Virus record (IMG/VR): IMGVR_UViG_3300000234_000008
Span: 1-41,585 of that record
From: a virus
Length of the DNA stretch: 41,585 nucleotides
Strand: one strand, 5' to 3'
Part shown: positions 701 through 41,585 of the stretch, piece by piece
Numbering within the stretch: the first letter of the stretch is position 1
Layout of the letters: each line of letters starts with the position of its first letter
Notes under the pieces: generated by a model
What the model was told of the DNA's origin: nothing
The model's input: the letters and a program-made list of their open reading frames with translations, nothing else
Database searches by the model: none
Made by a program: the position numbers and the translations under genes

Positions 701-776
701 GACCCGAGGGCGAAATCTCGGGTCCCACGCCTCACGCGGAGATGGGCACCGCACACGCAGCATCCAGGAGAGACGC
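701..776 (+). repeat. Hairpin leader cassette, copy A
   Basis: GACCCGAG (701-708) pairs perfectly with CTCGGGTC (717-724) around an 8-base loop. Then comes the shared core CTCACGCGGAGATGGGCACCG and a ribosome-binding site AGGAGAGAC just before the ATG at 777. Three near-identical copies follow (from 1021, 1257 and 2111). No T-tract follows the hairpin, so a standard intrinsic terminator is unlikely; it may be a 5' or 3' mRNA structural element. Confidence 0.8.
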
Positions 777-1022
777 ATGAAGAAGAAGATCCCGAACATC
801 GAGTGGGCCGAAATCCCGGTGCCCGAGGCGACCGTGCATCTGGACGACGGCATGATGGGCTACTGGGCGGCGGTGCCCGCGACGTGGACCGAGGATGACG
901 TGCTCGACGCGTTCCTCGCGACGGCCGACTACGACGAGACGCCCCGTATCCGCGTGACGCTGCGCGCGGGCAATGAGGGTGCCGCGTGTTTCGCGCAGTG
1001 CGAGGTGACGCCTGACGCCTGA
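777..1022 (+). CDS. Small hypothetical phage protein
   Basis: 81 residues, ATG at 777 with AGGAGAGAC spaced correctly upstream. The product begins MKKKIPNIEWAEIPVPEATV and is acidic overall, with no signal peptide, membrane segment or metal-binding motif. The middle segment TWTEDDVLDAFLATADYD looks helical, and the end RIRVTLRAGNEGA looks beta-stranded, so a small alpha/beta fold is possible. No family was recognised. Its TGA is followed directly by the hairpin of leader copy B, so gene plus leader behave as a repeated module. Confidence 0.6.
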   Translation: MKKKIPNIEWAEIPVPEATVHLDDGMMGYWAAVPATWTEDDVLDAFLATADYDETPRIRVTLRAGNEGAACFAQCEVTPDA

Positions 1023-1088
1023 CCCGAGGGCGCATCTCGGGTCCCAGCCTCACGCGGAGATGGGCACTGCACCACGCAGGAGAGACAC
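1021..1088 (+). repeat. Hairpin leader cassette, copy B
   Basis: GACCCGAG (1021-1028) pairs with CTCGGGTC (1036-1043) across a 7-base loop, followed by the same CACGCGGAGATGGGCAC core and the AGGAGAGAC ribosome-binding site before the ATG at 1089. The hairpin overlaps the stop codon of the upstream gene. This copy lacks a few bases between core and ribosome-binding site compared with copies A and C. Confidence 0.85.
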
Positions 1089-1247
1089 ATGACAGTCGTG
1101 AGCTACGACGACGGGTATGGCACTGGCGATGGCTACGGGGACGGGGATGGGTACGGTACTGGCGACGGGTACGGCGACGTGAGCGGGTACGGCGACGTGA
1201 GCGGGGACGGGGATGGGTACGGGGACGGCTCCGGTCCCGACGTCTGA
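1089..1247 (+). CDS. Gly/Tyr/Asp-rich repeat protein 1 (GY family)
   Basis: 52 residues, ATG at 1089 behind leader copy B. It starts MTVVSYDDGYGTGDGYG and is then almost entirely GYG, GDG and DVSG units, ending GDGSGPDV. About half the residues are glycine; the rest are mainly aspartate and tyrosine. Such low-complexity sequence should be disordered or form flexible Gly-loops; no enzymatic motif can exist here. Three further proteins of the same composition lie within 2.6 kb (1826, 2177 and 3365), three of the four sharing the N-terminal (T/A)VVS start. Function unknown. Aspartate-rich glycine loops could bind calcium, and Tyr-Gly repeats are sticky in other systems, but both ideas are inference. 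Confidence 0.7.
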   Translation: MTVVSYDDGYGTGDGYGDGDGYGTGDGYGDVSGYGDVSGDGDGYGDGSGPDV

Positions 1248-1256
1248 CCCGCCACT

Positions 1257-1332
1257 GACCCGAGGGCGCATCTCGGGTCCCAGCCTCACGCGGAGATGGG
1301 CACCGCACCACGCAGCACACAGGAGAGACGAC
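1257..1332 (+). repeat. Hairpin leader cassette, copy C
   Basis: GACCCGAG (1257-1264) and CTCGGGTC (1272-1279) form the same 8-bp stem with loop GGCGCAT, followed by the conserved core and ribosome-binding site before the ATG at 1333. Between stem and core it is base-for-base the same as copies B and D. Confidence 0.85.
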
Positions 1333-1644
1333 ATGGCCGAAGCGAAATACTGCATCATCGCAAACAAAAGCTACGGGCTCTACGTCGGTCTCGTCGATGA
1401 GGTGACGAGCGACGCCAACGGCGAAACGAAGACGGTGAGGGCGCGGGAGGTGCGCCACGTCGCGCGGTGGTACGGGCGGACGGGCGGCATCACGTCCCTC
1501 GCGGTGTACGGCATCTGCGGACCGAGCGCCGGGGACTCGCGCATCGGCGCGCCCTGCGTCAGTGCGACCCTCAGCGGCATCGTGAATATTTTTGAGTGCT
1601 CGGAGGAGGCGCGGGCGTCGTTCGAAAATTCGAGGCAGTCGTGA
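1333..1644 (+). CDS. Small hypothetical protein, DUF6948-like
   Basis: 103 residues, ATG at 1333 with AGGAGAGAC upstream. It begins MAEAKYCIIANKSYGLYVG, continues with VRAREVRHVARWYGRTGGI and contains a conserved-looking SGIVNIFECSEEA near the C-terminus. This layout (short beta-strand start, 'AREVRxxxxWxGxxG' middle, then an 'I...CS.EA' tail) resembles small phage proteins grouped as DUF6948, whose function is unknown; the match is from memory and moderate. Its TGA overlaps a GTG start of the next gene (GTGA at 1641-1644), and its 3' end carries the junction sequence TCGAGGCAGTCGTGA, found again at 1815. Confidence 0.6.
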   Translation: MAEAKYCIIANKSYGLYVGLVDEVTSDANGETKTVRAREVRHVARWYGRTGGITSLAVYGICGPSAGDSRIGAPCVSATLSGIVNIFECSEEARASFENSRQS

Positions 1645-1829
1645 CCGTCGGGATGGATCTGATGGGGATGAGGGAGTGTGACGAGTGCGGCGAACCGTAC
1701 ACGCCCACGGAGACCGACGCTGGAATCTGCTACGGCTGCATCCAGAGCCGCGAAATCGTCTACCTCAGAGCCCGCGTCCAGGAGCTGGAGCGCCTGCTGG
1801 GCTCGTACGCGCCCTCGAGGCAGTCGTGA
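1641..1829 (+). CDS. Small CxxC zinc-ribbon-like protein with coiled-coil tail
   Basis: 62 residues. GTG at 1641 overlaps the upstream TGA as GTGA; an ATG at 1653 is an alternative start. Two cysteine pairs, CDEC and CYGC (the second inside GICYGCI), lie about 20 residues apart and could coordinate one zinc ion. The C-terminal half, REIVYLRARVQELERLL, has heptad spacing of a short coiled coil, so a dimer is plausible. It resembles many small phage zinc-ribbon proteins, but no named family was recognised. Its stop again forms GTGA with the next gene, with the same 15-base junction sequence as at its own start. Confidence 0.6.
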   Translation: MTVGMDLMGMRECDECGEPYTPTETDAGICYGCIQSREIVYLRARVQELERLLGSYAPSRQS

Positions 1830-2101
1830 GCGGCGTCACCGGCTACGGCGCTGGCTATGGCACCGGTGCTAATGCCGGGCACGGGCACGGCTCGGGCACC
1901 GGTCACGGCACCGGCGACGGTCACGGCATCGGCGCTGGTGACGGCGCTGGTGACGGCACCGGTGACGGCGTCAGTGAGGGCTACGGTGAGGGCTCGGGCT
2001 ATGGCACCGGCTACGGCGGCGGCTCGGGCTATGGTCACGGCTCCTTCTATGGCCCCACCCACGGCTCTGGCGACGGCGACGTGGTGGGCTCCGGGGAGTG
2101 A
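1826..2101 (+). CDS. Gly/Tyr-rich repeat protein 2 (GY family)
   Basis: 91 residues from GTG at 1826, which overlaps the upstream TGA (GTGA). The protein begins VSGVTGYGAGYGTG and consists of alternating Gly with Tyr, His, Thr, Asp and Ala, for example GHGHGSGTGHG and GSGYGTGYGGG. Histidine is abundant here, unlike in GY protein 1, and aspartate is less dominant. The frame is open far upstream of the GTG because the region is GC-rich, but that part is a shadow of the zinc-ribbon gene. It is followed by hairpin leader copy D. Function unknown; paralogous by composition and shared VVS/VSG start to the proteins at 1089, 2177 and 3365. Confidence 0.6.
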   Translation: MSGVTGYGAGYGTGANAGHGHGSGTGHGTGDGHGIGAGDGAGDGTGDGVSEGYGEGSGYGTGYGGGSGYGHGSFYGPTHGSGDGDVVGSGE

Positions 2102-2110
2102 CTCGCCACT

Positions 2111-2176
2111 GACCCGAGAGCGCATCTCGGGTCCCAGCCTCACGCGGAGATGGGCACCGCACCACCCGGGAGACAC
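2111..2176 (+). repeat. Hairpin leader cassette, copy D
   Basis: GACCCGAG (2111-2118) and CTCGGGTC (2126-2133) form the stem; the loop differs from copies B and C by one base (AGCGCAT for GGCGCAT). The core CACGCGGAGATGGGCACCG is intact. The ribosome-binding site is shortened to GGGAGACAC before the ATG at 2177. Confidence 0.85.
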
Positions 2177-2362
2177 ATGACGGTCGTGAGCGACGGCTAC
2201 GGCATCGGCGACGGCCATGGCTACGGCGACGGCGACGGCGACGGCGACGGGTACGGCGAGGGCTGGATAGAGGCGCTCGACGGGCGTCCTCCTGTGGCTC
2301 GGCCGAAGTGGTGGCGTCGGGCCCGGAGATGGCTGCGTGGCGCGGCCGTGGCGGTCCCGTGA
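2177..2362 (+). CDS. Gly/Tyr/Asp-rich protein 3 with basic tail (GY family)
   Basis: 61 residues, ATG at 2177 behind leader copy D. The N-terminus MTVVSDGYGIGDGHGYG and the DGDGDGDGYGEG run match GY protein 1. After that the protein leaves the repeat and ends in a basic, tryptophan-containing tail (PKWWRRARRWLRG) that could be amphipathic and bind membrane or nucleic acid. The tail may be a fusion to a former gene end, since the stop lies exactly at the methyltransferase start (GTGA at 2359-2362). Function unknown. Confidence 0.6.
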   Translation: MTVVSDGYGIGDGHGYGDGDGDGDGYGEGWIEALDGRPPVARPKWWRRARRWLRGAAVAVP

Positions 2363-3318
2363 ATGTGGCTCTACCTGCCCCGCGCGTGCTTCGAATCGTC
2401 AGCCTCTTCGCTGGCGGCGGCGGACTCGACCTCGGAGTTCACCTCGCAGCCAGGGGCCGAGCGCGGACTGTGGTGTACGTCGAGCGGGACGCCTATGCAG
2501 CGGCCTGCCTCGTGGCCCGGATGGAGGAGGCGTCCCTGGCACCGGCTCCTGTCTGGGACGACGCTGTCAGCTTCAGCGGCCGCCCGTGGAGTGGAGTGGT
2601 GGATTGCCTCGCTTTCGGGAGTCCCTGTCAGGACCTCAGCGTCGCCGGAAGACAGGCCGGGCTTCGCGGTAGCAGGAGTGGGCTCTTTTTCGAGGGGCTC
2701 CGCATCGCCGACGAGTGCGAGGCTCCGCTCATTTTCTGGGAAAACGTCGGAGGCGCATCTCGCGCTCTCCCCGACGTATTCGCCGCCCTCGAGGGCTACG
2801 GTTACACCGGCTGCGCAGTCGGCCTTCGTGCTTCTGACGTGGGTGCCCCTCACGGACGGAGACGAATTTTTGTGCTGGCCATCCGCCGGGGTGCCGACCT
2901 CGCGGAACTCTGGCCGTGGGACGAGCGCAATGCGGGCGTGGGGAACCCCGCGAGCGAGCGAGGGCAAGGGCACGGGGGCCGAGGGCTCGAAGAGCCACGC
3001 GCACCGACTCAGGCGGGGCTACCTCGATGCGGCCGCAGTGTCTTTCCGCCCGGTCCCGGCGATGACGACGGCTGGCGAGAGTGGCTCGCAGCTGGTGGGC
3101 CCGCTCCGGCTGAATCCCGAATTCGTCGAGGCGCTGATGGGCTGGCCGGTGGGCTGGTCTCTGCCGGTGCCCCGGCCCACCAGGAGTCCGAGCTCGCCTT
3201 CTCGTGGGCCGACCGGCTCAGGCTCCTCGGAAACGGCGTCGTGCCCCAGCAGGCAGCAGCCGCCCTTGTTTTCCTCGTGCGACGACTGAGGATTGCCACC
3301 GCCGCCACCGAACAGTGA
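2359..3318 (+). CDS. DNA C5-cytosine methyltransferase (Dcm-like), frame-shifted target-recognition region
   Basis: 319 residues from GTG 2359. This enzyme class adds a methyl group to C5 of cytosine using S-adenosylmethionine. Visible motifs: I, FAGGGGLDLG (17-26), cofactor binding; IV, GSPCQ with catalytic Cys90; VI, ENV (128-130); VIII, RRRIF (167-171); X, GNGVVPQQ (from 291). Between motifs VIII and X the continuous frame has family-like stretches (ADGLAG) but poorer codon use, while the +1 frame reads WGTPRASEGKGTG (from 2939) and LNPEFVEALMGWPVGW (3110-3157), typical of phage Dcm C-terminal parts and richer in G/C at third positions. Two compensating shifts, about 2890-2935 and 3160-3195, would join the frames. 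A phage enzyme of this kind protects against host restriction. Confidence 0.85.
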   Translation: MNVALPAPRVLRIVSLFAGGGGLDLGVHLAARGRARTVVYVERDAYAAACLVARMEEASLAPAPVWDDAVSFSGRPWSGVVDCLAFGSPCQDLSVAGRQAGLRGSRSGLFFEGLRIADECEAPLIFWENVGGASRALPDVFAALEGYGYTGCAVGLRASDVGAPHGRRRIFVLAIRRGADLAELWPWDERNAGVGNPASERGQGHGGRGLEEPRAPTQAGLPRCGRSVFPPGPGDDDGWREWLAAGGPAPAESRIRRGADGLAGGLVSAGAPAHQESELAFSWADRLRLLGNGVVPQQAAAALVFLVRRLRIATAATEQ

Positions 3319-3364
3319 ATGTCGTCGCACGGATTAGTGCGCACGCCAAACCAAGGAGAGACAC

Positions 3365-3688
3365 ATGGCAGCAAAAGAAGAGGCAGTCGTGAGTTCCGGC
3401 ACCGGCTACGGCGACGACGGTGGTGGTGGCGACGGCGTCGGGTATGGCGACGGCGGCGTCGGGTATGGATATGACGGATACAGCGGCGGGTCTGGCGGGT
3501 ACGGCACTGGGACCGGGGACGGGTACGGAACTGGAACTGGAATCGGGGTTGGGGGCGGGTATAGCGGCACCGGCACCGGCTCGGGCGATGGCACCAGTTC
3601 GGGCGATGGCTACGGCTCAGGCGATGGCTACGGCTCAGGCTCAGGCGAGCCGCCGGCAGCCGGCTGGTGCACGCGGAGCGCGACATGA
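3365..3688 (+). CDS. Gly/Tyr-rich repeat protein 4 (GY family)
   Basis: 107 residues, ATG at 3365 with CAAGGAGAGACAC upstream, the same ribosome-binding site as the leader cassettes but without the hairpin. It begins MAAKEEAVVSSGTGYG; the bases for EAVVS (GAGGCAGTCGTGAG) are the junction sequence also present before GY protein 2. The rest is GYG, GDG and GTG repeats; an 18-base unit coding for GDGYGS occurs twice near 3602-3637. The protein ends PPAAGWCTRSAT, outside the repeat. Its TGA overlaps the next ATG (ATGA at 3685-3688). Longest member of the GY family; function unknown. Confidence 0.65.
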   Translation: MAAKEEAVVSSGTGYGDDGGGGDGVGYGDGGVGYGYDGYSGGSGGYGTGTGDGYGTGTGIGVGGGYSGTGTGSGDGTSSGDGYGSGDGYGSGSGEPPAAGWCTRSAT

Positions 3689-4011: not shown

Positions 4012-5457
4012 ATGGGCCAGGCGAAGGCAGCGAAGCGGCGCGGAGATGGGTGGTCGAACGTATTTACGCAGGTCGGGGATGCCAGGCGAGACAGGCGCTT
4101 CGGCGCGCGGTACGCGCGGAATTTCGTCGATGAGCTCACGGCCGAGGAGATGTGGCGGGGCGACGACATGGCCGCCCGCATCATCGAGACGGCCCCTAAG
4201 GTGCAGCTGCGCAACGGCTTTTCGGTGAGCGTCAGCGCGCTCGGGATGCGCCAGGCAAGCCAGCCCTACGCCGAGCACATCGACGGGCTCGAGACGAAGG
4301 GGGCTGAGGAGGGCATGCGGGCGCTCCTCGACGACCTCGGTGTCACGGCAAACGCAATCAAAGCTGGACAGTACGCCCGTGCCTACGGGGGGGCGGCCCT
4401 ACTGATGGGCGTCGATGACGGCCAGACGAATCTCGAACTGCCGGTGCGCGAGAATACCGTGAGGGCGATACGGTATCTCGTAGTGCTGCGGCCTCGGGAA
4501 ATCTGGCCGATCCGCTGGAATACGAATCCTCTCTCGGGCGGGTACGGGCAGCCTACGGCGTACCAGGTGCGGCGCGAGGTCTCCGGGGGCGGCGCGAGCG
4601 GCCAGGGCTTCGTCGTGCACGCTTCTCGCGTCATTCGATTCGACGGCATTGCCGTCAGCAGGCGCGCGACCACCGAGAACCGTGGGTGGGGCGACAGCGC
4701 GCTGAATCGGCTGGTGGAGCCGCTGAGCGATTTCCAATTGTCATTCGCCGCCGTGCCGACCTTGATTAGCGACTTCGCCCAGGGCGTCTACAAACTGAAG
4801 GGCCTCGCCGAACTTTTCATGGCGAACGAGGATGACGTGGTGACGAAGCGCATCCAAAACCTCGACATGGCGAGGTCGGTGCTGCGCAGTCTCGTCATCG
4901 ACGCGGAGGATGATTTCGCGCGTCAGCAGACGCCAGTTGCCGGACTCGCTGAGCTTCTCGATCGCGTTGCCACCAGGTTCGCAGCCGCAGCGCAGATGCC
5001 GGTGTCGCTACTCTTCGGGGAGGCGCCGGCCGGACTCAACGCCACCGGAGCCGCCAACACTCGGTGGTGGTACGACGATCAGGAGGCAGATCGCGAACTC
5101 ACCCTGCGGCCGAGACTGAACAAGCTGGTGCGCCTTATTTTCCTCTCGAGTGAAGGGCCAACCGCAGGGGTCGAGCCCGAGAGATGGACAATCAAGTTCG
5201 AGCCGCTCTGGAAGGCGACCGAGGCCGAGGTGGCGGAGATCCGATCGAAGGTGGCGAGCGCCGACAAGTCATACGTTGATGCCGGCGTGCTGACACCGGA
5301 GGAGGTGGCGATCAGCCGATTCGGCGGCGACGCGTGGAGCATGGACACGCATATCGACCTGGACGCTCGCTCGGTGCAGGTCGAGGCGGCCGAGATGCAG
5401 CCCGTGGAACCGGAACCGGAACCGGCCGAAGAGGCTCCTGCCAAAGATGAGGCGTGA
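4012..5457 (+). CDS. Portal protein (DUF1073 type)
   Basis: 481 residues. The portal dodecamer at the capsid vertex is the DNA channel and terminase docking point. Family-typical elements are an N-terminal FVDELTAEEMWRGDDMAARII, a glycine-rich YGGAALLMGVDDG, LRPREIWPI, VVHASRVIRFDG and RGWGDSALNRLVEPL, then PVSLLFGEAPAGLNATG, as in DUF1073 portals of Mu-like and related myophages. It ends in an acidic PEPEPEPAEE tail. ATG 4012 is chosen because the conserved part begins after it; ATG 3997 is possible. The start lacks a ribosome-binding site, and TACGGT precedes it by 6 bases. It overlaps the gpF-like gene by 11 bases. Confidence 0.9.
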   Translation: MGQAKAAKRRGDGWSNVFTQVGDARRDRRFGARYARNFVDELTAEEMWRGDDMAARIIETAPKVQLRNGFSVSVSALGMRQASQPYAEHIDGLETKGAEEGMRALLDDLGVTANAIKAGQYARAYGGAALLMGVDDGQTNLELPVRENTVRAIRYLVVLRPREIWPIRWNTNPLSGGYGQPTAYQVRREVSGGGASGQGFVVHASRVIRFDGIAVSRRATTENRGWGDSALNRLVEPLSDFQLSFAAVPTLISDFAQGVYKLKGLAELFMANEDDVVTKRIQNLDMARSVLRSLVIDAEDDFARQQTPVAGLAELLDRVATRFAAAAQMPVSLLFGEAPAGLNATGAANTRWWYDDQEADRELTLRPRLNKLVRLIFLSSEGPTAGVEPERWTIKFEPLWKATEAEVAEIRSKVASADKSYVDAGVLTPEEVAISRFGGDAWSMDTHIDLDARSVQVEAAEMQPVEPEPEPAEEAPAKDEA

Positions 5458-26693: not shown

Positions 26694-26769
26694 AGCGGAC
26701 CACCCAGACCCATGGGTTGATCAGGGCGCGGACCATCGCTCCGCTGAAGAGAATCGGCCGCTCCTTCAT
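26671..26769 (-). pseudogene. Truncated fragment of a conserved phage gene (MKERPILFSG start)
   Basis: 32 codons, ATG 26769-26767 in ATGA overlap with the ParB gene stop. The first 17 residues, MKERPILFSGAMVRALI, closely resemble the well-known N-terminus of ASCH-like phage proteins ('M..kPILFSg.MVRAil.GrKtqTRR'). The frame then diverges into NPWVWVVRFTRRRAP and stops; the conserved KTQTRR is missing. The gene was probably cut off where the minus-strand operon meets the oppositely reading BppU-like gene. It is probably a remnant, or a microprotein that keeps the start. Noted from memory, not searched. Confidence 0.55.
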
Positions 26770-28496
26770 GGCTGCGCCTCCGGGCTGACCTTCTTCGCGC
26801 CCATCAAGGCCTCGGCCTTCTCCGAGTTCTCGATGGCCTTCTCGATGTCCGCCAGGGAGACGGCGTGCGCCTTCGCAAACATTTTCAGCGAATCGCTGTA
26901 GCCGTCCGACGCGTCCCCATCGTCCCCATCGATGATCGCCTTCACGAAGAGGAACCGCACGAGATCTTGCCTCTGGCCTCGCTCGATTTTCTCCTCCACG
27001 CTTTCCCAACCGAGCGCATCGAGGATCTCCTTGCGCTGCCACTGGCCGGCGAGGCCTCGTGCCAGCACGCGCCAAGCCGCGTCGTCCATGCCGACGCGAG
27101 CCACAGAGTCGGCGATCTTCAGCGCGGCCGCAGCCACCACCTTCTGCCGGATGTCGTGCGCCTCGCGGAGTTCCTTCGCCTCGGTCTTCTCCGCCTTGAG
27201 GTTCTCCGAGCGGCTCGTCTCGATCTGCGCCCACTTCAGTCCGCTCTCTGCGAGCGCCTTCACCAGCGCATCTCGCTCCACGAGATCGTGCGCCTTCATC
27301 TCGCGATCGGGAGCCACCACTCGCTGGGGCCGCTTGTCCTCGGGCTGGCGCTCCCAGAGTTCGCCCCAGGTGCGCTTCTTCGAGTCGGCGTGGTTTGGCT
27401 CGCTCATGTCCACGTACCTCGACCCGTATGGCAGCTGGCTCCCGGACGAAAACAGCTTCGCCCCCTCGTCCAGCCCGAGCACCTTGGCTCCCTTTTTCTC
27501 CTCGGCCGCAGCCTTCTTCGCCCAGGCGGCCGAGGCTTTCTGCCGAAAGCACCCGACATCGGTGCAGACCTGGCCGGCCTGCCGGAGATCGTCGAAGAGC
27601 CCTGGCGTCGCCGACTTCGAATTCTTCGGGCAGACGTCGCATCCGCCGGCATCGGGGAGCAGCATCGCGTCCTTGAGCGAGAACGGGGCGCCCCTCAGCG
27701 AGCGGCAGAACTCGCGCTGCACCCAGTCGATGGCCGGGCGCGCCGAGATGACCTGGGACTGACCGTCGTCGTCCGCGAAACGTGAGGTCATCTCCTTGAG
27801 CGCCTTCGCTTGAAGCGCGTGCGTGGGGAGCCGCGCAAGGGGGACCGCAACCGAACTCGGCAGCACACCATCCGCCATCGCCTTCCGCGCCTCGCCGCAC
27901 AGCGCCGTCAGCTTGAGCCTCGAGTAAACGGTCGCCTTCGACGTGCCGACCCTCGCGGCAATCTGCTCCACGGAGTACCGGAAGCGCACCTGCATCGACT
28001 CGTAGGCCTCGGCCTCCTCGAGTTCCGTGAGGTCGACGCGCTGCAGGTTTTCGGTGATTTGAATCTCCAGCACCTGCACGTCATTCAGCGCGCGAACATC
28101 GCACGGGACCGACGCGAGGCCCGCCTCCTTCGCAGCCCGGAAGCGCCGGTGCCCCGCGACGATCTCGAGCCTCTCAGACCCGGCCATCTCGCGGACAATC
28201 AGCGGCACCATCATGCCGACCGCCTTGATCGACTGCGCCAGGGCGTCCATCCCGCCGAACGTCTTGCGGGGGTTCGTCGGCGACTCAGAGAGCAGATCGA
28301 TCGGGATGGTCACCAATTGAGACGCCGGAGGAGGCAGCAACGCAGCGGCGTTCTTCTCCACATCGGCGCCCCATCCCATCTCGGTCTTCACTTGCTCGAC
28401 AAAGCTTGCGGTGCCCTTCTCTTTGGCCTTCATGCCTTCGGTCACATCATCGGCGACTGTCTTCTTTCCACTGCGGGACTGCGTCTTGGGTTTCAT
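26766..28496 (-). CDS. ParB/RepB/Spo0J-like protein
   Basis: 576 residues, ATG 28496-28494. The ParB N-terminal domain is clear: SPTNPRKTF (72-80), LAQSIKAVGMMVPLIVRE, EIVAGHRRFRAAKEAGL (GHRR at 115-118 in the CTP-binding place, normally G-E-R-R), QITENLQRVDLTELEEAEAY, and a helix-turn-helix, YSVEQIAARVGTSKATVYSRLKL. A cysteine-rich piece (CDVCPKNSK; CTDVGCF) and a long charged helical part follow. ParB proteins clamp DNA using CTP. No ParA is present, so it may serve in replication, regulation or DNA binding rather than partition. It is the last intact gene of the minus-strand operon. Confidence 0.85.
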   Translation of the reverse strand: MKPKTQSRSGKKTVADDVTEGMKAKEKGTASFVEQVKTEMGWGADVEKNAAALLPPPASQLVTIPIDLLSESPTNPRKTFGGMDALAQSIKAVGMMVPLIVREMAGSERLEIVAGHRRFRAAKEAGLASVPCDVRALNDVQVLEIQITENLQRVDLTELEEAEAYESMQVRFRYSVEQIAARVGTSKATVYSRLKLTALCGEARKAMADGVLPSSVAVPLARLPTHALQAKALKEMTSRFADDDGQSQVISARPAIDWVQREFCRSLRGAPFSLKDAMLLPDAGGCDVCPKNSKSATPGLFDDLRQAGQVCTDVGCFRQKASAAWAKKAAAEEKKGAKVLGLDEGAKLFSSGSQLPYGSRYVDMSEPNHADSKKRTWGELWERQPEDKRPQRVVAPDREMKAHDLVERDALVKALAESGLKWAQIETSRSENLKAEKTEAKELREAHDIRQKVVAAAALKIADSVARVGMDDAAWRVLARGLAGQWQRKEILDALGWESVEEKIERGQRQDLVRFLFVKAIIDGDDGDASDGYSDSLKMFAKAHAVSLADIEKAIENSEKAEALMGAKKVSPEAQP

Positions 28497-29741: not shown

Positions 29742-30010
29742 GACTCCCCCCGAGCGCACGCCGGGCAGTCGGCCTCGTGCTTCCCGAGAGCCCGGCGCTC
29801 CTCCTCGGTCTTGGCCGCCCAACTCGCCTGGCGCTCCGTGATGCCGAGCCGCTCGGAGATCTGCGGCCAGGTGAGACCCTCAGCGCGCAGCTTCGTCACC
29901 CGCTGGTGGCGCTCCGTCACCTTGGCCTTCAGGGTGCTGCGTGGGGGTGCTGTGGTCTTCCGATCGGCGATCTGCAGCACCCGTTCGAGGCGCGTTTCGA
30001 GGTCAGTCAT
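29738..30010 (-). CDS. Helix-turn-helix protein of the early operon
   Basis: 90 residues, ATG 30010-30008 with CAGGAAGGGGACCC upstream, a ribosome-binding site of the second class in this genome. It begins MTDLETRLERVLQIADRK, then has HQRVTKLRAEGLTWPQISER, LGITERQASWAAKTEEERR: a helix-turn-helix of the type found in RNA-polymerase sigma-like or resolvase HTH domains. The C-terminus CPACARGES has one CxxC and may bind zinc with the His of KHEAD. It stands first after the stem-loop region behind RecT, behind a fifth copy of the leader core on this strand. May be a regulator (inference). Confidence 0.65.
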   Translation of the reverse strand: MTDLETRLERVLQIADRKTTAPPRSTLKAKVTERHQRVTKLRAEGLTWPQISERLGITERQASWAAKTEEERRALGKHEADCPACARGES

Positions 30011-30025
30011 GGGTCCCCTTCCTGT

Positions 30026-30048
30026 TGCGGCGCCCATCTCCGCGTCAG
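30026..30048 (-). repeat. Minus-strand copy of the leader core
   Basis: On the minus strand this reads CTGACGCGGAGATGGGCGCC and matches the core of the left-end hairpin leaders (CTCACGCGGAGATGGGCACC) at 18 of 20 positions. It lies 15 bases before the start of the HTH gene, which uses another ribosome-binding site (AGGAAGGGGAC). So the core also occurs without its hairpin and without the AGGAGAGAC site. Confidence 0.7.
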
Positions 30049-30111
30049 GGCGTGGTACCGGGTAGCGCCCGGCAGTCGTCCGGCTCACCAAGTGCTAGTC
30101 GACCGCGAGAA

Positions 30112-30167: not shown

Positions 30168-31316
30168 TCACCCCTCGCTGCCGGGCTCCGGGGCGTCGAG
30201 GGTGGCCTCGCGCCTCGCGATCTCCGACTGGACTGCGGCGATGCCTTCGCGCACCGCGCCCATCCAAGATTTCTTGCCCTTCGCCTTCGCGACATTCTCC
30301 TCGGCGATCTGCAGGGCTTCCTCCAACTCAATCGTCGAGCAGTCCTCTAGCGCGGTCCCACGCGCCGGACCGAAGCGCAGGTGCGTGAGCGGTGGCACCG
30401 TCGATGCCGGGGCGGGTGGCGTCTTGGGCGGGGCCTTGGGGCTCTCGCCGCGTCGGGGCGTCGTCGGGGCGTCGTCGGGCATGAACGGAGGAGGCTCCTG
30501 GGCGGCGGCATCCTGCGGCACCGGCACCGTCTTCGGTTCGGCCTTCTCGGCTAGCGCACTCGCGACCGGCGTCACCCCAAGGCGTTGGGCCAATGCGCGC
30601 GACTTCGATGCTGCCTGCTGCGCCACCTGCTGGATGGCAGCGGGGACCGTGTTGACCTCCACCTCCGTCTGCATCTCGGCGGGGTCGTACCAGCCCGAGA
30701 AAATGTTTGGGTACAGACGCCGGTACTGGTCTGCCCTCGCGCATTTCCGGATCTGCCCGGCCGGGTCCCGACTCCAGAAGACGTTGGGCGTCCCGTCGCG
30801 CTTCTTCTGGATGCGGCTTTCGACCGTGAGCCAGGTGATCTCCACCTCGCGCCCCTCGCGCCTCCCGTGCGCCCACGCGCCGATCACCTTGTTCGCGTCC
30901 TTCTTGCGCGTCTCCACAGACCACCGGTGGACGATCTCCTGCGATGCCTCGTCGATGAAGAACTCATCCCCGGCGTAGACGACCCCGGAGCGCATGCCCC
31001 GGAAGTCCCGCAGTGCATCGGCGCGCGCAGCGAACCCGGCCTCGGCCACCATCGGGTCGTGCTTTTTGCTGTTGCTGTTCGCGTCCCAGCGCTCGACCAA
31101 GTACGCCTGCCGCAGGAACGGGTTGAGCCCCGTCTGCCGGCACCACTCCACGAAAAACGCGAACTCGGCCTCGGTCGCGGTCGGCGGGGTGATTGTCCGA
31201 CGCATGATGTCGATGCGAGCCGTTGTGAATTCCAACTGCTGCCAAGGCGAGACGTGGGTGCGCTCGGTCCTTGCGAGTGAGGTGATTGGCTGATTGGTCT
31301 TCGGCTCCGTCGTCAT
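30168..31316 (-). CDS. RecT/Bet-type single-strand annealing recombinase
   Basis: 382 residues, ATG 31316-31314 with CAGGAAGGGGACACCACC upstream. The core shows RecT/Bet family elements: EFAFFVEWCRQTGLNPFLRQ, AYLVERWD, PMVAEAGFAARADALRDFRGMRSG, KVIGAWAHGRREGREVEITW, and PAGQIRKCARADQYRRLYP. These bind single-stranded DNA and anneal it to complementary strands. The long C-terminal part (from about residue 235) is rich in alanine and proline and ends with a helical piece (TIELEEALQIAEENVAKAK). It works with the nuclease encoded just upstream. Its start is 24 bases after that gene. Confidence 0.85.
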   Translation of the reverse strand: MTTEPKTNQPITSLARTERTHVSPWQQLEFTTARIDIMRRTITPPTATEAEFAFFVEWCRQTGLNPFLRQAYLVERWDANSNSKKHDPMVAEAGFAARADALRDFRGMRSGVVYAGDEFFIDEASQEIVHRWSVETRKKDANKVIGAWAHGRREGREVEITWLTVESRIQKKRDGTPNVFWSRDPAGQIRKCARADQYRRLYPNIFSGWYDPAEMQTEVEVNTVPAAIQQVAQQAASKSRALAQRLGVTPVASALAEKAEPKTVPVPQDAAAQEPPPFMPDDAPTTPRRGESPKAPPKTPPAPASTVPPLTHLRFGPARGTALEDCSTIELEEALQIAEENVAKAKGKKSWMGAVREGIAAVQSEIARREATLDAPEPGSEG

Positions 31317-31339
31317 GGTGGTGTCCCCTTCCTGCGTGT

Positions 31340-32485
31340 TCACTGCTGCGCCTCTTCGTTGATGTCGGAGTCGAGCGCCTTCTGCGTCTGTTCGAGCTTG
31401 AGTTCGAGGGCGCCGACCTCGAACTTGAGCGGTCCACTCCATGTCGTGCGCATCGTGCGATGCCCCGGTGCCACCGAGGTGTGATCTGTCACCAGATTGG
31501 CGAGCCGATGTTCGAGCGCCGTCCGCTGCTCACCCCCCGGCATCGTCTGGATCACCAGAGCCGCGAGGCGCTGCGCCTCCTCGGCCACCGTCGCCCAGTT
31601 GGTCTTCGAGCCGTCCTTCGTGCGACGGAAGGTGATTTTCCCGAAGTCGCCAACAAGCCCGGCTCCGGCTCCGATGCGCGACGCGATCGTGTTGTAGCAG
31701 AGCGACTTGAGCGCCTTGAGTCTCTTCTCTCCGGCCTTCAGTTTCGCGAAGAGTTCGATCGTGCGCAGCAACTGCTCCTCTGCAGACGTCTGCACCTCCT
31801 CGAGTACGGCGGTCTCGTCACGCGGAAATGCGCGGGCAAGGTACTCGCCGTACCGGTCGGTGGCGTCCGGAGGGGGCGGGATTTTTTTCGCGACGTGGTC
31901 GACCATGAATCGCTCCGCGATCTCGTAGAGCGCCTGGAAAATCCCGTGGTCCACCACCACTCGGTAGTGGGCGAGCGACGTCTTGTCGAAATCGACCGCG
32001 AAATCGACGACAGAGAGCCCGGCGACCGAGCCCTCCCAGTGGGCCTGGCAGAGGTACTCGTCGGGGATCGCATCGGTGCCCTCCTCGCCCCAGAGGTGGC
32101 GCAGGCGCCAGTTCGTGCTCTTCACCTGCAGGAGTTTTTCGGCGCTGCGCACGTCATCGCGCAGGCGTCGCCCGTCCCCCCTGGCCTCGGCCGACAGGTA
32201 CACGGCCCGGTCCGGTGTGGCGAGCGCGAACGACTTCGTCGGGTGCCGCAGCGTCGCCACCCGCGCGAGGAAGCGCCGATGCTGTTTGGCCCAGATCCTG
32301 GCGATGGGCGCCTCGATCTCCGTCCCGAGGTCCATCGAGTAGGTGCTCTCGATCTGGGCGCCAAGCACCTTCGCCTCGAAAATCGCGATGGGCGAGCTCC
32401 ACCTCGACAGCCCCGCGAGTGCTGCGATCTCCGACGCGCCCACGCCAGTGCGGCGCAGCTCCAACTGCTTCGACGTCAACGACAT
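31340..32485 (-). CDS. YqaJ/RecE-like exonuclease
   Basis: 381 residues, ATG 32485-32483 with TGGAAGGGGAACAAC upstream. Motifs of the PD-(D/E)xK viral recombinase fold are visible: TGVGASEIAALAGLS (start of the fold), LGTEIEAPIARIW with the first acidic residue, ALATPDR for the conserved Asp, KLLQVKSTNW for the E/Q-x-K, and IPDEYLCQAHWEGSVAGL, the 'Y..Q.qw....tG' motif. These nucleases digest 5' ends of double-stranded DNA so that RecT can load. The C-terminal 120 residues are helical (LLRTIELFAKLKAGEKRLK). It is the first gene of the minus-strand early operon. Confidence 0.85.
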   Translation of the reverse strand: MSLTSKQLELRRTGVGASEIAALAGLSRWSSPIAIFEAKVLGAQIESTYSMDLGTEIEAPIARIWAKQHRRFLARVATLRHPTKSFALATPDRAVYLSAEARGDGRRLRDDVRSAEKLLQVKSTNWRLRHLWGEEGTDAIPDEYLCQAHWEGSVAGLSVVDFAVDFDKTSLAHYRVVVDHGIFQALYEIAERFMVDHVAKKIPPPPDATDRYGEYLARAFPRDETAVLEEVQTSAEEQLLRTIELFAKLKAGEKRLKALKSLCYNTIASRIGAGAGLVGDFGKITFRRTKDGSKTNWATVAEEAQRLAALVIQTMPGGEQRTALEHRLANLVTDHTSVAPGHRTMRTTWSGPLKFEVGALELKLEQTQKALDSDINEEAQQ

Positions 32486-36454: not shown

Positions 36455-36618
36455 GCGGCCTGTTACTGGCGATGCTGTGCCTTGGCTTCGGAGCGATGGC
36501 GCTCCGCGAGGTGATGGCACTCCATCGTGATCGACGCGCCCAGCGGCAGAGGATGTTGGATTTGGCCTTCCGCCGAGCGAAGCGGCTTGACCTCAGTGGT
36601 TCGGACGATCGAAGGTAA
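36445..36618 (+). CDS. 57-residue single-pass membrane protein
   Basis: ATG 36445 lies inside the end of the RuvC-like gene, with CCGGAGGGACCC as a good ribosome-binding site. One hydrophobic helix (LSGLLLAMLCLGFGAMAL, residues 3-20) is followed by a basic helix (LHRDRRAQRQRMLDLAFRRA) and a short end. No family is known to me. Such small proteins could be superinfection-exclusion or host-takeover factors, but nothing in the sequence proves it. Confidence 0.6.
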   Translation: MDLSGLLLAMLCLGFGAMALREVMALHRDRRAQRQRMLDLAFRRAKRLDLSGSDDRR

Positions 36619-36646
36619 CGAAGTTCAACTTGCGGGAGGGGACACG

Positions 36647-37261
36647 ATGCAAACGGCAAGACAGAAGCACGCGATGCGCGTCATGACCGCGTCGACCACC
36701 ACGGTGCGGGCGACGCCGCAGTTCATTTACGACTGGCTCGATGGGCTGCTGCACTTCACGGTTGATGTCTGCGCAAACGAGGAGAACGCGAAGCACCCGA
36801 AGTATTTCTCCGAGCGCGACAATGGCCTCGCGCAGTCCTGGGAGGGCGAGACGTTTTGGATGAACCCGCCCTACGGTCGGCAGATCGGCGGATGGATGGC
36901 GAAGGCCCGCGACTCGGCTGTCCTCGACCGCGCAATGGGATGCGCGTTGGTTCCCGCTCGCGTCGACACCGAGTGGTGGCAGAGCGTCGCGATGTGCCGA
37001 GACGGGAAGGGCGGCAGGCTGCGCAGCGTCTGCTACGTCCCAGAGACGGGCATGCACTGGTACCGGTGGGACAGGTTGATCACCGGCGTGTACTTTCACG
37101 ACGAGCGGCTCCCGTTCGATGGGTTCGAGTCCGGCGCCCCCTTCCCGAGCGCCTTCGTGATCTACGCGCACCCGTCGCGGCGACCCGTCGCGCCAGGTAT
37201 CGCCTCCAGCCTTCCGGCGAGCCGCGACTGGGGCTTCCTCGTGGAGGGCTGGCCGCGATGA
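36647..37261 (+). CDS. Phage N6-adenine DNA methyltransferase (Dam type, PF05869-like)
   Basis: 204 residues, ATG 36647 (GGGAGGGGACACG upstream). The family pattern is complete: RATPQFIYDWLDGLLHFTVD, VCANEENAKHPKYFSERDNG, LAQSWEGETFWMNPPYGRQI with the catalytic NPPY at residues 73-76, WMAKARDSA, and GCALVPARVDTEWWQSVAM. This family methylates adenine N6 in phage DNA. The FTVDVCA segment corresponds to the S-adenosylmethionine-binding start. Together with the C5 enzyme at 2359 and the fusion enzyme at 37583 it suggests heavily modified phage DNA. Confidence 0.85.
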   Translation: MQTARQKHAMRVMTASTTTVRATPQFIYDWLDGLLHFTVDVCANEENAKHPKYFSERDNGLAQSWEGETFWMNPPYGRQIGGWMAKARDSAVLDRAMGCALVPARVDTEWWQSVAMCRDGKGGRLRSVCYVPETGMHWYRWDRLITGVYFHDERLPFDGFESGAPFPSAFVIYAHPSRRPVAPGIASSLPASRDWGFLVEGWPR

Positions 37262-37271: not shown

Positions 37272-37586
37272 GTGTTTGCTTTTTGGTGGACCTTCTCGGC
37301 GCCTCCATCGCCTAGATCCCCTTCCGGGCAATGCTGGCACGGCGGTTTCCCCTTCATCTCGACCCATCGATGGCGGCGCGAGGCCGTCGTCTGCCCGGAG
37401 GGTGACTCCATGACACCAGCGCAGCATGGGTACCTGCAGTGCGTTCGATGCGGGGTTTGGCATCGGCCAGAGAATGTTGTCGAGACCTCGTGGATCTGCC
37501 TGCCAGGCGACCAGGTGGCGCACGGCCACCAGTGCAAAGACGACGCGTTCTGTAGCCGCGATGCCGACGAAGGGAATGGCCCGTGA
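37272..37586 (+). CDS. Small Cys/His-rich protein, start uncertain
   Basis: 104 residues if begun at GTG 37272; the only strong ribosome-binding site (GGAGGGTGACTCC) precedes ATG 37410, giving a 58-residue form. The upstream part has CWHGGFPFI and AVVCPEGDS, the downstream part CVRCGVWHRP, SWICLPG and HGHQC, so both sections hold possible zinc ligands and third-position GC favours this frame over a competing one (37258-37413, joined to both neighbours by ATGA). It could be one protein, or an internal short form. No family was recognised. The stop forms GTGA with the next gene. Confidence 0.5.
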   Translation: MFAFWWTFSAPPSPRSPSGQCWHGGFPFISTHRWRREAVVCPEGDSMTPAQHGYLQCVRCGVWHRPENVVETSWICLPGDQVAHGHQCKDDAFCSRDADEGNGP

Positions 37587-38851
37587 CGAACCCGAGACGC
37601 ATCGAGTACCTGCCGCTCAGCGACGTTCGATCTGCCCAGCGGAACGTGAAGGAGCACGACCTCGGGGCGCTGCAGCAGTCGATTTCCAGATTCGGATTCA
37701 ACGATGCCGTGATTGTCGACGACCGAACCGGAAATCTCGTCAGCGGCCATGGGCGCGTCGAGGCTCTTCGAGCGATGCATAAGGAGGCCCCGCAGCGTCA
37801 CCCGGCTGGGGTGCAGGTGCGCGGGGAGGGCGAGCATCCCGAGTGGCTCATCCCGGTGCAGCGCGGCTGGTCGTCGAAGAACGACTCCGAGGCCGAGGCC
37901 TTCCTCGTTGCGGCCAACCGGCTCGTCGAACTCGGCGGGTGGGATGACGCAATGCTCGAGCGCGTTCTCGTCGACCTGGCGCAGATGGGCCCAGAGGCGT
38001 TGATTGGAACTGGGTTCGACGGCGACGACATCGACAAGATGATCAACGACGCGGCGCGCGCAGCCATCGGCGCCACCGATCCGGATGACGTCCCGGAACC
38101 CGGAACTCTCTGGGTGAAGCCTGGCGACCTCTTCGCGCTTGGCGAGCACCGGCTGCTCTGTGGCGACAGCACCAGGGGCGACGACATCGATCGCGTCTGC
38201 GCCGGTGTTTCTCCCGATGGCGTCTGGACCGATCCGCCCTACGGACTCAGCTACGAGTCGAGGGCCGGGAAGGTCCACAACGACGCCGAAGATGGGCTCG
38301 TGGTCTTGCTCGACCAGGTCTTCGGTCAGTTGGCGCGCGTGCTGAAGCCGGGAGCGTTCGTTTACGTCGCGCACCCGGACGGGCCGAACTCGTTGGTCTT
38401 CTACGAGCGATTCATGGAGCACTTCATTTTCAGGCAGGGCCTCGCCTGGGTGAAGGACTCCTTCGTGTTTGGTCGCACCGACTACCACTACATGCACGAG
38501 CCGATCATCTACGGGCTGAAACCGGCCGAGAGTGGGCGGCGCGGGCGCGGGCGCGGAGGCAAGGGCTGGTACGGCGACAACGCGCAGACCTCCGTCTTCG
38601 CAATCCCGAGGCCGAAGCGCAGCGAAGAGCACCCGACGATGAAGCCCGTTGAGCTCGTCGAGGCGATGCTCCGAAATTCCAGCGCGCCAGGGCATGTGCT
38701 GCTCGAGCCATTTTCAGGTAGCGGGACGACGCTGATGGCCTGCGAACGTCTGCAACGGAGGTGCTGCGCCATCGAGCTCGACCCGGTCTACGTTCAGCGC
38801 ACCATCGCACGCTGGGAGGCGTACACGCAGCGGAAGGCCGTGAAGACGTAG
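37583..38851 (+). CDS. ParB-domain DNA methyltransferase fusion (beta-class N6/N4)
   Basis: 422 residues from GTG 37583 (GTGA overlap). The N-terminal 60 residues have a ParB/Srx-type domain: LPLSDVRSAQRNVKEHDLGAL, QQSISRFGFNDAVIVDDRTG and VSGHGRVEAL (GHGR as the nucleotide-binding turn). After a helical linker comes the methyltransferase: TDPPYG (DPPY at 217-220) for catalysis, YHYMHEPIIYG, and HPTMKPVELVEAML, then LLEPFSGSGTTLMACERLQR near residue 380 for the cofactor, and IELDPVYVQRTIARWE. Order IV before I is that of beta-class enzymes. Such ParB-fused methylases are widespread in phages and may couple DNA scanning to modification. Confidence 0.85.
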   Translation: MTNPRRIEYLPLSDVRSAQRNVKEHDLGALQQSISRFGFNDAVIVDDRTGNLVSGHGRVEALRAMHKEAPQRHPAGVQVRGEGEHPEWLIPVQRGWSSKNDSEAEAFLVAANRLVELGGWDDAMLERVLVDLAQMGPEALIGTGFDGDDIDKMINDAARAAIGATDPDDVPEPGTLWVKPGDLFALGEHRLLCGDSTRGDDIDRVCAGVSPDGVWTDPPYGLSYESRAGKVHNDAEDGLVVLLDQVFGQLARVLKPGAFVYVAHPDGPNSLVFYERFMEHFIFRQGLAWVKDSFVFGRTDYHYMHEPIIYGLKPAESGRRGRGRGGKGWYGDNAQTSVFAIPRPKRSEEHPTMKPVELVEAMLRNSSAPGHVLLEPFSGSGTTLMACERLQRRCCAIELDPVYVQRTIARWEAYTQRKAVKT

Positions 38852-39483: not shown

Positions 39484-40061
39484 CGAACGCAGTCCCAAAG
39501 GCAACCCGGGGGAGGGGCAGAGCACCCCTCCTGACTGCAGAGACGCAAAAGAAGATGCTGGACGAGATCACCCTCGGCGCCACGATGACGGACGCGTGCC
39601 TTCTGGTCGGCGTTTCCCTCGCGGCCGCGATGATGTGGGTGCGAAAGGGCGAGGCGCAGAAGAAGGGCATCTATCGCGAATTCGTCAAAGCCCTAGAGCA
39701 AGCCAGAGCAAAGCGCCGCAGGTGGTATCGCGCCGACATCACCAGGAAGGCGACCGAACGGAAGGATTGGCGGGGCATCGCCTTCATCGCCAGCGTGACC
39801 GAGCCCGAGGCATTCGGGGCGCGGGTGCATGTGGTTGTCGAGCAGGAACTCACGGCAGCTATCGAGCGTTTGAAGAGGGAGTTTTCTGGTGAAGACCAAC
39901 TTCTTGAGCGAGCGCTCTCGGCCATCGTTGGCGAAACTCGCGCTGGGGGAATTGCGATTGCTTCGAGCCACGCGAGCGACGCAGTCGCTGCGATCGGCCA
40001 GGGCGTTGATCCCGCATCCACCATCGCCCCAGCAGCTGGAGTTCTTGGCGCTGACCTGTGA
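39480..40061 (+). CDS. terS: Terminase small subunit-like protein
   Basis: 193 residues, ATG 39480 in ATGA overlap. The basic N-terminus (KATRGRGRAP) leads to a helix-turn-helix, ITLGATMTDACLLVGVSLAAAMMWVRKG, which binds the packaging site, then REFVKALEQARAKRRRWYRA, ATERKDWRGIAFIASVTEPEAF and VVVEQELTAAIERLKREF, the coiled oligomerisation part. This order fits phage TerS. The last 57 codons overlap the terL frame (from 39889); there third-position GC is lower in this frame than in terL, so the C-terminus is probably little constrained. TerS selects viral DNA and hands it to TerL. Confidence 0.75.
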   Translation: MTNAVPKATRGRGRAPLLTAETQKKMLDEITLGATMTDACLLVGVSLAAAMMWVRKGEAQKKGIYREFVKALEQARAKRRRWYRADITRKATERKDWRGIAFIASVTEPEAFGARVHVVVEQELTAAIERLKREFSGEDQLLERALSAIVGETRAGGIAIASSHASDAVAAIGQGVDPASTIAPAAGVLGADL

Positions 40062-41415
40062 GGAGGCACTCTTTGGTGGCGCGGCGGGTGGAGGCAAATC
40101 GGACGCAGGACTGATGGCGGCGCTGCAGTACATCGACGTGCCCGGGTACTCGGCCGGAATTTTCAGGCGCACGAAGGTCGACCTGCTCATGCCCGACGCG
40201 ATCCTCGCACGGGCGCGCGGGTGGTTCGGCGGCGCCGAAGCAGCAGGGCTCTGCCGCTGGGACGACGAGAGCAACAGCTACTTTTTCCAGACACGGCCCG
40301 GGAAGCCAGAGAGTTCGATCCATTTCGGATATCTGCAGTTCGATCGCGACCTGCTGCGGTACCAGGGCTCCAGATTCCATTTTCTGTTCGTCGATGAGCT
40401 CGGGCAGTGGAACGAGAAGCACTACCGCTACCTGTTCTCGCGCGTGCGTCGGCTGAGACACGAGGCGATTCCACTGCGCGTGCGAGCGTCTGCAAACCCG
40501 GGCGGCCCCGGACAGGCGTGGGTGAGGGAGCGCTTCATCGAGCAGGCGCGGCACGTCGTCAGCGGCCGGGACGTACGCGAGGATCTTCGGGCGCATCGCG
40601 AGAGGAGCGTCCCGCTGCCGGCGCCTCGTCTGTACGTGTCGCCTCCGTCCAGCGACGCCGTGGAGTCGGCGCGCCACCAGGGGCTGCAGGCCGAGGGGGC
40701 GCATTTCGTTCCGTCGCTCGCTGCCGACAATCCAGGTCTCGACCTCCCTGCGTACAGGGCACAATTGGCGAAGCTCGACCCGATCACCAGGGCGCAGCTG
40801 GAGCATGGCGACTGGGACGCGCTGGCGAGCGGCCGTTTTTTCAACATCGCCTGTTTTGATTGGATTGATGTCGAGCCCCCCAACGTCCGATGGCTGCGCA
40901 GTTGGGATTTCGCTGCGACCAAGGAGCAGCCGGGCAGGGATCCGGACTGGTCGGTCGGCGCGAGGCTGGGGTTGTGGGCGCCTGACTCGAGGACCGCCCC
41001 CCGTTTCGTGGTGTCTCACATCGAGCGATTTCGCGAGGACCCTGGACCGACCGAGCGTCGGGTGGTCGCCACGGCATCGAGCGATGGGCGTCGAGTGCCG
41101 ATCCTCATGGAGCAGGAGCCTGGGAGCGCGGGCAAGATGACGATCACCAATTGGCAGACTCGTCCACTGCTCGGGTACCAGGTCATCCCGGTGCGGAAAA
41201 CTGGTCCCAAGGATGAGGGCTGGAAACCGCTCGCCGGGTTTGCGAATGTCTCTCCGATGGTGCTGGTGCGGGGGCCGTGGACGCAGGCATTCGTCGAGGA
41301 GATGACTGCGCTCCCAGTGGGCCATGACGACCAGGCCGACAGCGTCTCGCAGGGTTTCGCCCACCTGACTGGCGGAGGCGCTGCTGCTGCGCGCGCACGA
41401 GCGCAGGCTGGCTGA
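39889..41415 (+). CDS. terL: Terminase large subunit
   Basis: 508 residues from GTG 39889, inside terS. The ATPase has Walker A GGAAGGGKS (63-71), Walker B FHFLFVDE (164-171) and RVRASANPGGPGQAWV, the C-motif and coupling region. The nuclease has RSWDFAATKE for the first acid and VGHDDQADSVSQGF at the end for the last; the RNase H-like fold cuts the concatemer. The start is set by a normal distance of about 60 residues to Walker A. It ends at the remnant transposase, not at the portal gene, which is 4 kb further around the circle, so cargo has been placed between terL and the portal. Packaging type cannot be told from the sequence. Confidence 0.9.
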   Translation: MKTNFLSERSRPSLAKLALGELRLLRATRATQSLRSARALIPHPPSPQQLEFLALTCEEALFGGAAGGGKSDAGLMAALQYIDVPGYSAGIFRRTKVDLLMPDAILARARGWFGGAEAAGLCRWDDESNSYFFQTRPGKPESSIHFGYLQFDRDLLRYQGSRFHFLFVDELGQWNEKHYRYLFSRVRRLRHEAIPLRVRASANPGGPGQAWVRERFIEQARHVVSGRDVREDLRAHRERSVPLPAPRLYVSPPSSDAVESARHQGLQAEGAHFVPSLAADNPGLDLPAYRAQLAKLDPITRAQLEHGDWDALASGRFFNIACFDWIDVEPPNVRWLRSWDFAATKEQPGRDPDWSVGARLGLWAPDSRTAPRFVVSHIERFREDPGPTERRVVATASSDGRRVPILMEQEPGSAGKMTITNWQTRPLLGYQVIPVRKTGPKDEGWKPLAGFANVSPMVLVRGPWTQAFVEEMTALPVGHDDQADSVSQGFAHLTGGGAAAARARAQAG

Positions 41416-41585
41416 GCGTTGATGGAGTCGAGCACCTGATTCCAGACCGTCTCACGCAGGCCGCTCGCGCTCTGCTTCGTGAGAAGGCGGTAGAACGTGG
41501 TGTCAGAAATGGCGCGGCCAACGCCCAGAGCGCGGCGAGCCACAGCGCCGAGGTCGGCACTGAAGTCCTCGACGCGACGCAAGCA
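41416..41585 (-). pseudogene. Transposase N-terminal remnant, part after the circle junction
   Basis: Continuation of the minus-strand open frame that starts at 235 on the other end: VEDFSADLGAVARRALG, AISDTTFYRLL, GLRETVWNQVLDSIN. The frame continues antisense into terL, where it no longer resembles a transposase. The window ends repeat bases 1-94, so this segment and 1-94 are one sequence in the circle. Together they make about 100 codons of an IS4-like N-terminal domain. Confidence 0.6.
41492..41585. repeat. Terminal direct repeat, right copy (circular closure)
   Basis: Identical to bases 1-94. The copy marks the point at which the circular genome closes; one copy should be removed when counting the genome length (about 41,491 bp). 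Confidence 0.95.

Follow-up and report, generated by a model that had tools for sequence, protein, structure and literature searches.

The virus record IMGVR_UViG_3300000234_000008 (positions 1 to 41,585, analysed at full length and called the window here) encodes four proteins of alternating glycine, one residue in two, which we call GxG proteins, X being the intervening residue. In phages GxG usually stands second in an operon headed by DUF6948 (PF22253), and this pairing is near-obligate over phages of many bacterial phyla. An earlier note, made from the letters of this DNA, had described the four GxG genes as a free-standing family in a cargo region. They belong instead to an operon of which DUF6948 forms the first half and GxG the second, and the earlier interpretation, supported in part, should be replaced by a two-gene module. 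We put a probability of roughly 0.4 on the reading that DUF6948 is an Sm-like core for which GxG acts as a detached low-complexity tail, giving a multivalent assembly.

The DUF6948-GxG gene pair

The open reading frames (ORFs) of the module in the window are as follows.

1089..1247, + strand: GxG paralogue, 52 aa, behind the second copy of a repeated leader (described below)
1333..1644, + strand: DUF6948 gene, 103 aa, predicted Sm-like small beta-barrel and conserved partner of GxG proteins
1826..2101, + strand: GxG protein, 91 aa, GTG start overlapping the preceding TGA stop; the canonical partner by position
2177..2362, + strand: GxG paralogue, 61 aa, with the basic tail WWRRARRWLRG, behind the fourth leader copy
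3365..3688, + strand: GxG paralogue, 107 aa, with the putative junction relic GAGGCAGTCGTGAG among its N-terminal codons (3380-3393)

The positions and lengths that the earlier note gave for the GxG ORFs were all confirmed. In their products 73-84% of glycines have a second glycine two residues on, and there are seven runs of at least six G-x units versus 0.013 from codon-shuffled frames of the region. The X residues are Y, D, T, S, H, E, I and A, with V also present in the arrays. A VVS start was said to be shared. It is complete in three of the proteins; the 91-aa protein begins GTG-AGC ('VS'), with the GTC just upstream untranslated. The DNA GTCGTGAG is common to all four genes at this point. 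The described mix of Asp, His and Tyr needs correction, as His is common in the 91-aa protein only, and in the proteins of 91 and 107 aa both Thr and Ser match Asp or Tyr in frequency. Matches of the arrays to Pfam TrAA12 and to PHROG families were below the cut-off and of low complexity, and were dropped.

The window DUF6948 protein passes the Pfam gathering score (38.2 bits versus a cut-off of 27; E-value 1.6e-9, and 8e-11 in a second search). The GxG genes at 1089 and 1826 flank it on the same strand, with one gene for a four-cysteine (Cys4) protein of 58 aa intervening before 1826. The window thus lacks a direct DUF6948/GxG overlap; the start of the 91-aa GxG gene overlaps the inserted 58-aa gene instead.

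A degenerate DNA pattern for GYG-D-GYG arrays matched at least 120 viral contigs and 97 places in 84,980 bacterial and archaeal genomes. When the neighbours of 178 GxG loci were clustered, one family dominated, being present at 135 loci and upstream on the same strand at 129. This family is DUF6948, with 75 of 104 aligned members passing an E-value of 0.001 against PF22253. Two DUF6948 motif patterns were then applied to viral contigs with no reference to GxG, and a GxG run was found within 600 nt downstream at 79/82 and 77/78 loci (156/160 in total), versus 2/108 and 1/99 in the upstream controls. With a hidden Markov model over all loci, a GxG partner is present at 271 of 279. Away from DUF6948, the same contigs have two GxG runs in 1.01 Mb, an expectation of 0.0006 per 600 nt on one strand, and there are none in 25 control contigs (256 kb). 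The DUF6948 motifs had been learned beside GxG, a circularity that was countered with Pfam's own model and with cultured phages. When Pfam's model was run on 693 genomes belonging to two bacterial orders, it gave 11 DUF6948 matches above the cut-off, and GxG follows every one of them; two of these eleven genomes are seed genomes, and one more match, below the cut-off and with an internal stop, was excluded. DUF6948 is present in about 1.5% of the 693 genomes, a low frequency that fits prophages or other mobile elements.

The GxG start overlaps the DUF6948 stop in 86% of pairs, with a median distance of -13 nt. The two are naturally fused in a single ORF at one locus (L036), and the gene order is sometimes reversed (L104, MW202478). 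The family phrog_18306 seemingly holds both parts, the GxG part of the match being weak. A tblastn search with GxG alone gave no match, presumably since the low-complexity filter masks the query. GxG arrays also occur fused to larger domains (L042, L043, L052, L074, L087, L089, L098, L104, L134, L059). These carry 'WHHxLTGSCExGRxxF' or 'KWxGERWWIVAL..DK', both with no Pfam match, and in one case DUF7666 (E-value 3.9e-30).

Cultured phages with DUF6948 in INPHARED include those of Pectobacterium, Dickeya, Iodobacter (PhiPLPE), Vibrio, Rhodobacter (RcapNL), Rheinheimera and Chlorobiaceae. The Rheinheimera carriers are 115 Barba phages, and the Dickeya phage is Dickeya by name, its host being Pectobacterium. 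GxG adjoins DUF6948 in each INPHARED phage examined, in every cultured group. Its annotation is mostly hypothetical, once 'lamprin' (L472, MW202613), and sometimes absent, as in PhiPLPE (L471), or in another frame. For gene 25 of Chlorobiaceae phage CV-1-33 (L470), the annotated protein comes from a different frame of the repeat and is rich in Ala and Met.

Evolution and composition of the arrays

Pectobacterium phages Abuela and Taid have DUF6948 proteins that are 99.7% identical. Their GxG proteins share the start MSKLIKPEKYG and are 73 and 85 residues long with a different order of units. Over five such Pectobacterium phages the lengths are 53, 73, 73, 85 and 89 residues, and among Rheinheimera phages whose DUF6948 is identical or 99.7% identical, GxG proteins of 69, 71 and 79 residues occur. 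Between near-identical phages the length thus shifts by dipeptide steps and the frame is kept. The reading frame likewise stays open in metagenomic GxG pairs. These dipeptide steps support the gain and loss of repeats implied in the earlier note; domain swapping, proposed there as well, was not seen. Random frame disruption in sister genomes had been named as a sign against the proteins. In the Pectobacterium and Rheinheimera phages examined, the arrays are open and in register, which leaves the earlier reading unrefuted on this count.

Repeat expansion with no function or translated product is hardly credible as an explanation. Slippage does generate simple repeats, and other frames have been called in some annotations, as in CV-1-33. 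Against this, the pairing with DUF6948 is near-obligate over many bacterial phyla, the frame is preserved and the X alphabet is restricted.

Entropy was compared by codon position over 248 arrays. Its median is 0 bits at the silent third position of either codon, and about 0.9-1.0 bits at the two positions of the X codon where a change replaces the residue. Between neighbouring units, 7143 differences fall on replacement positions and 664 on silent ones. The X codons are TAY, GAY, TCY and AAY; GCY (Ala) is found at a frequency of 0.003 versus 0.072 expected, and Thr-type codons at 0.006 versus 0.018 expected. Because the silent sites are uniform, the replacement sites vary and Ala codons are rare at X, we read the array DNA as homogenised by recombination, with selection for a polar mixture at X. 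Diversity-generating retroelements focus variation on the replacement positions of an otherwise constant sequence, and the GxG arrays have the same pattern of variation. No reverse transcriptase (RVT_1) was found in any of 50 records, in a search whose controls matched, and a retroelement target was therefore ruled out.

The window arrays fail this uniformity: in five of their six runs the third base of the Gly codons has an entropy of 0.4-1.4 bits, versus a median of 0 in the 248 relatives. Variable silent sites and an X set that extends to T, H, A, I, V and E make them look older or relaxed.

A different explanation is that the array acts as nucleic acid, the GGC-NNY hexamers being a recombination element or RNA ligand, perhaps bound by the Sm-like protein, with the protein secondary. 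Consistent with this, the silent third bases are uniform within arrays that vary at replacement sites, and in AT-rich phages GGC makes up 84-89% of array Gly codons versus 12-22% in other genes. However, the dominant Gly codon varies by array (GGC in 204, GGT in 22, GGG in 16 and GGA in 6), which gives no single motif, and GGC is the common Gly codon of prokaryotic low-complexity regions generally (PMC6821194). Both points make the GGC preference weaker evidence for a DNA motif. The frame, start overlap and N-terminus are retained in the relatives examined, and the depletion of Ala- and Thr-type X codons points to selection at the protein level. We consider a nucleic-acid element improbable. 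C is found at one or both silent positions in nearly every array, and the AT-rich phages L317, L343 and L312 are examples in which GGC-rich arrays have neighbouring genes that use mainly GGA and GGT.

The arrays are acidic: 254 of 256 are net negative and 234 of 256 have no K or R. A fast-varying acidic polypeptide could act as a decoy or in counter-defence by tying up nucleic-acid-binding proteins or sensors of the host, DUF6948 serving as its carrier or chaperone. The net charge, the very rapid length change among near-identical phages and the placement beside methyltransferases and early genes would fit. Yet the X residues do not diverge freely and are held to the Y/D/S/N set, and no known anti-defence gene was noticed among the recurrent neighbours. 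The PADLOC models gave no defence-family match to DUF6948 or GxG, so a known anti-phage defence system was also rejected. A decoy is thus an improbable role.

Predicted fold of DUF6948 and a possible mechanism

AlphaFold models built with family alignments reached a pLDDT (predicted local distance difference test) of 94.2 for the window DUF6948 and 97.3 for that of a relative (L229). The five predicted strands (E5-11, E15-26, E32-45, E75-81 and E83-88) form a bent small barrel in which strands 4 and 5 are continuous. DUF6948 is thereby predicted to be a small beta-barrel of the LSm/Hfq type in which a helical segment is inserted after strand 3 and before strand 4. Among the top 50 Foldseek matches of each model in the PDB, essentially all are Sm, LSm or SmAP proteins, or spliceosome or NatC chains of that kind, with a probability mostly of 0.9-1.0 and a target TM (template modelling) score of up to 0.66 (window) and 0.70 (L229). 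In the viral structure library BFVD, the DUF6948 family itself ranks first (E-values to 1e-7), followed by annotated Sm-like cyanophage proteins among others. One of these, from Synechococcus phage S-CAM3, has weak fold similarity to DUF6948 (E-value 0.02), and the cyanophage proteins are larger. No Pfam or NCBIfam Hfq family matched DUF6948. Judging from the models, the fold is probably Sm-like.

The setting of the module favours the mechanism proposed here. Its recurrent neighbours within 4 kb are genes for YqaJ exonuclease, DNA methyltransferase, SSB, ERF, RecT, DnaB and ParB-like proteins, some named by PHROG scans and others read from their sequences, and the window phage has RecE and RecT, the latter with a leader copy beside it. 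We infer that DUF6948 forms an Sm-type ring that binds RNA or single-stranded DNA. The acidic, Tyr-rich GxG protein, free of lysine and arginine, would be the detached low-complexity tail of this ring, docking via its short N-terminus and lending it multivalency. The resulting assembly or condensate may concentrate phage nucleic acid together with recombination and replication proteins. Array length and the order of X would drift through recombination of 6-nt units because composition matters and not exact sequence. A role for GxG in condensation is plausible. The full proposal is that the ring and its hypervariable partner, which has a gene of its own, assemble together as a nucleic-acid condensate where the phage recombines or replicates its genome. 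Recombination would homogenise the silent sites of the array, and selection would maintain Tyr, Asp, Ser and Asn in mixture at the replacement sites. Taken as a whole this proposal is possible and rather doubtful.

Two known kinds of protein resemble this arrangement. Low-complexity domains of the [G/S]Y[G/S] type in FUS-type proteins are Gly/Tyr-rich and tied to nucleic-acid binding; there is no homology to GxG, which is strictly alternating and acidic. The Hfq of Acinetobacter has a Gly-rich repeat tail on its Sm core that is required for function (PMC11617691). The likeness lies in an Sm core extended by a long repeat tail of glycine and aromatic residues, in which the number of repeats matters. 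In Hfq, however, core and tail form one chain and the tail units are GGFGGQ, whereas the phage GxG has its own gene, overlapping that of DUF6948, and alternates G-x strictly.

Several points weigh against an Sm-like ring with a GxG tail. The best Foldseek E-values are 0.038 (window) and 0.0027 (L229), so that 0.001 was not reached. A PDB sequence search with DUF6948 gave no match, and hhalign against LSm/Hfq was insignificant (probability 1-2%), though with the Sm1 region in register; its references were five sequences, of which one LSm and Hfq were checked against the PDB. The models are of single chains and hence silent on ring formation, and the net charge of DUF6948 is near zero (median +1). 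The uniform silent sites could point to a role at the nucleic-acid level. Lastly, the window module is placed between terminase and portal, outside the recombination cluster.

This last point and the silk-like, glycine-rich composition would suit a virion or adhesive protein. The module is usually in the replication/recombination region, however, and no structural PHROG matched; such a protein is very unlikely. Adhesion, metal binding and decoys had been offered as roles in the earlier note, and no positive evidence was found for adhesion, calcium binding or a decoy role.

A further explanation keeps the fold and drops the condensate. DUF6948 would be an Sm-like RNA chaperone or host regulator, similar to Hfq or Rof, that diverts the RNA metabolism of the host at an early stage of infection, with GxG only tuning its turnover or autoregulation in the manner of Hfq tails. 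The fold prediction agrees with this, as does the finding that the tail repeats of Acinetobacter Hfq alter RNA affinity and autoregulation (PMC11617691), and the Sm-like protein Rof is reported to inhibit Rho (PMC11018626). A detached hypervariable acidic partner is unknown for such regulators, though, and the adjoining genes are those of DNA recombination. We regard an RNA regulator as rather unlikely.

The module in the window and its significance

The first and last 94 bases of the window are identical (1-94 and 41492-41585). Because the two ends match, the assembly is probably complete and circularly permuted or terminally redundant. The GxG/DUF6948 module sits in a 4-kb run of small genes with the terminase on one side and the portal on the other. 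No close cultured relative of the phage was found in INPHARED by megablast, and no close relatives were found in viral contigs with portal peptide patterns. The other features of the region and its surroundings are listed here.

701..779, + strand: leader copy 1, hairpin GACCCGAG..CTCGGGTC, then CCTCACGCGGAGATGGGCAC and GGAGAGAC
1021..1091, + strand: leader copy 2, before the 52-aa GxG gene
1257..1335, + strand: leader copy 3, before DUF6948
1653..1829, + strand: Cys4 (zinc-ribbon-like) gene, 58 aa, between DUF6948 and the 91-aa GxG gene
2111..2179, + strand: leader copy 4, before the 61-aa GxG gene
2359..3318, + strand: C5 DNA methyltransferase (phrog_363, E-value 3e-49), within the GxG region
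4012-5454: portal
30010..30049, - strand: partial leader copy 5, just 3' of the RecT/Bet gene in the recombination operon
30171-31442, - strand: RecT/Bet gene, recombination operon
39889-41415: terminase

A leader precedes four window genes. It consists of an 8-9 bp hairpin past the preceding stop, the invariant 20-mer CCTCACGCGGAGATGGGCAC and a Shine-Dalgarno sequence resembling GGAGAGAC. The fifth copy has no hairpin and two mismatches. A pattern scan for the leader as a common metavirome element picked up 25 contigs, none of them meaningfully homologous to the window, and the repeat appears to be phage-specific. The hairpin was also considered as a structured RNA and rejected: a 9-bp stem recurs, but the z-scores are -1.9 to +1.3 and the stem barely differs between copies. 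The earlier note had missed the leader, the DUF6948 gene and the Cys-rich gene at 1653-1829.

The Cys4 protein found no family match in a Pfam search. The 3' end of its gene is a copy of the DUF6948 3' end (GAGGCAGTCGTGA). The 14-mer GAGGCAGTCGTGAG closes the Cys4 gene, and its GTG starts the 91-aa GxG gene, overlapping the stop. This 14-mer is found again, with one mismatch, where the DUF6948 gene ends (1632), and once more in the N-terminus of the 107-aa GxG (3380). On the simplest reading of these repeats, the GxG family of the window would descend from one ancestor whose GTG start overlapped the DUF6948 stop, and the shared VVS would be a relic of that stop/start junction. The Cys4 gene would then have been inserted, splitting the pair and duplicating the junction, and GxG copied three times, twice behind a reused copy of the leader. 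With three extra GxG copies, two of them behind the repeated leader, the window holds an unusual variant of the module.

The TGA stop of the 61-aa GxG gene overlaps the GTG start of the methyltransferase (2359), which is a neighbour and outside the DUF6948-GxG pair. The phage has at least three DNA methyltransferase genes, counting this one (2359-3318), 36527-37258 and a protein of ParB/methyltransferase type (37583-38848); a ParB-like protein is encoded at 26769-28496 (- strand). Both RecE and RecT are encoded. Two small genes of the module region (777-1022 and 462-683) have no family match.

Pfam gives no function for DUF6948, and neither the GxG partnership nor the Sm-like fold was found in any source consulted. 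In the library searched we likewise found no paper that mentions DUF6948 or GYGDGYG, in line with the earlier statement that no such phage system is described, and no literature description of the two-gene module. DUF6948, the first component of the two-gene system, would add a new branch to a fold already known. A tight gene pair over phages of many phyla with no described function is a real unknown phage strategy. If the proposed mechanism is true, the module would be a prokaryotic Sm/low-complexity ribonucleoprotein divided between two genes, and a simple model for the evolution of disordered repeat proteins when selection acts on their composition and not on their sequence. Cultured systems, namely Rhodobacter capsulatus phage RcapNL and the Rheinheimera Barba phages, put the module within experimental reach.

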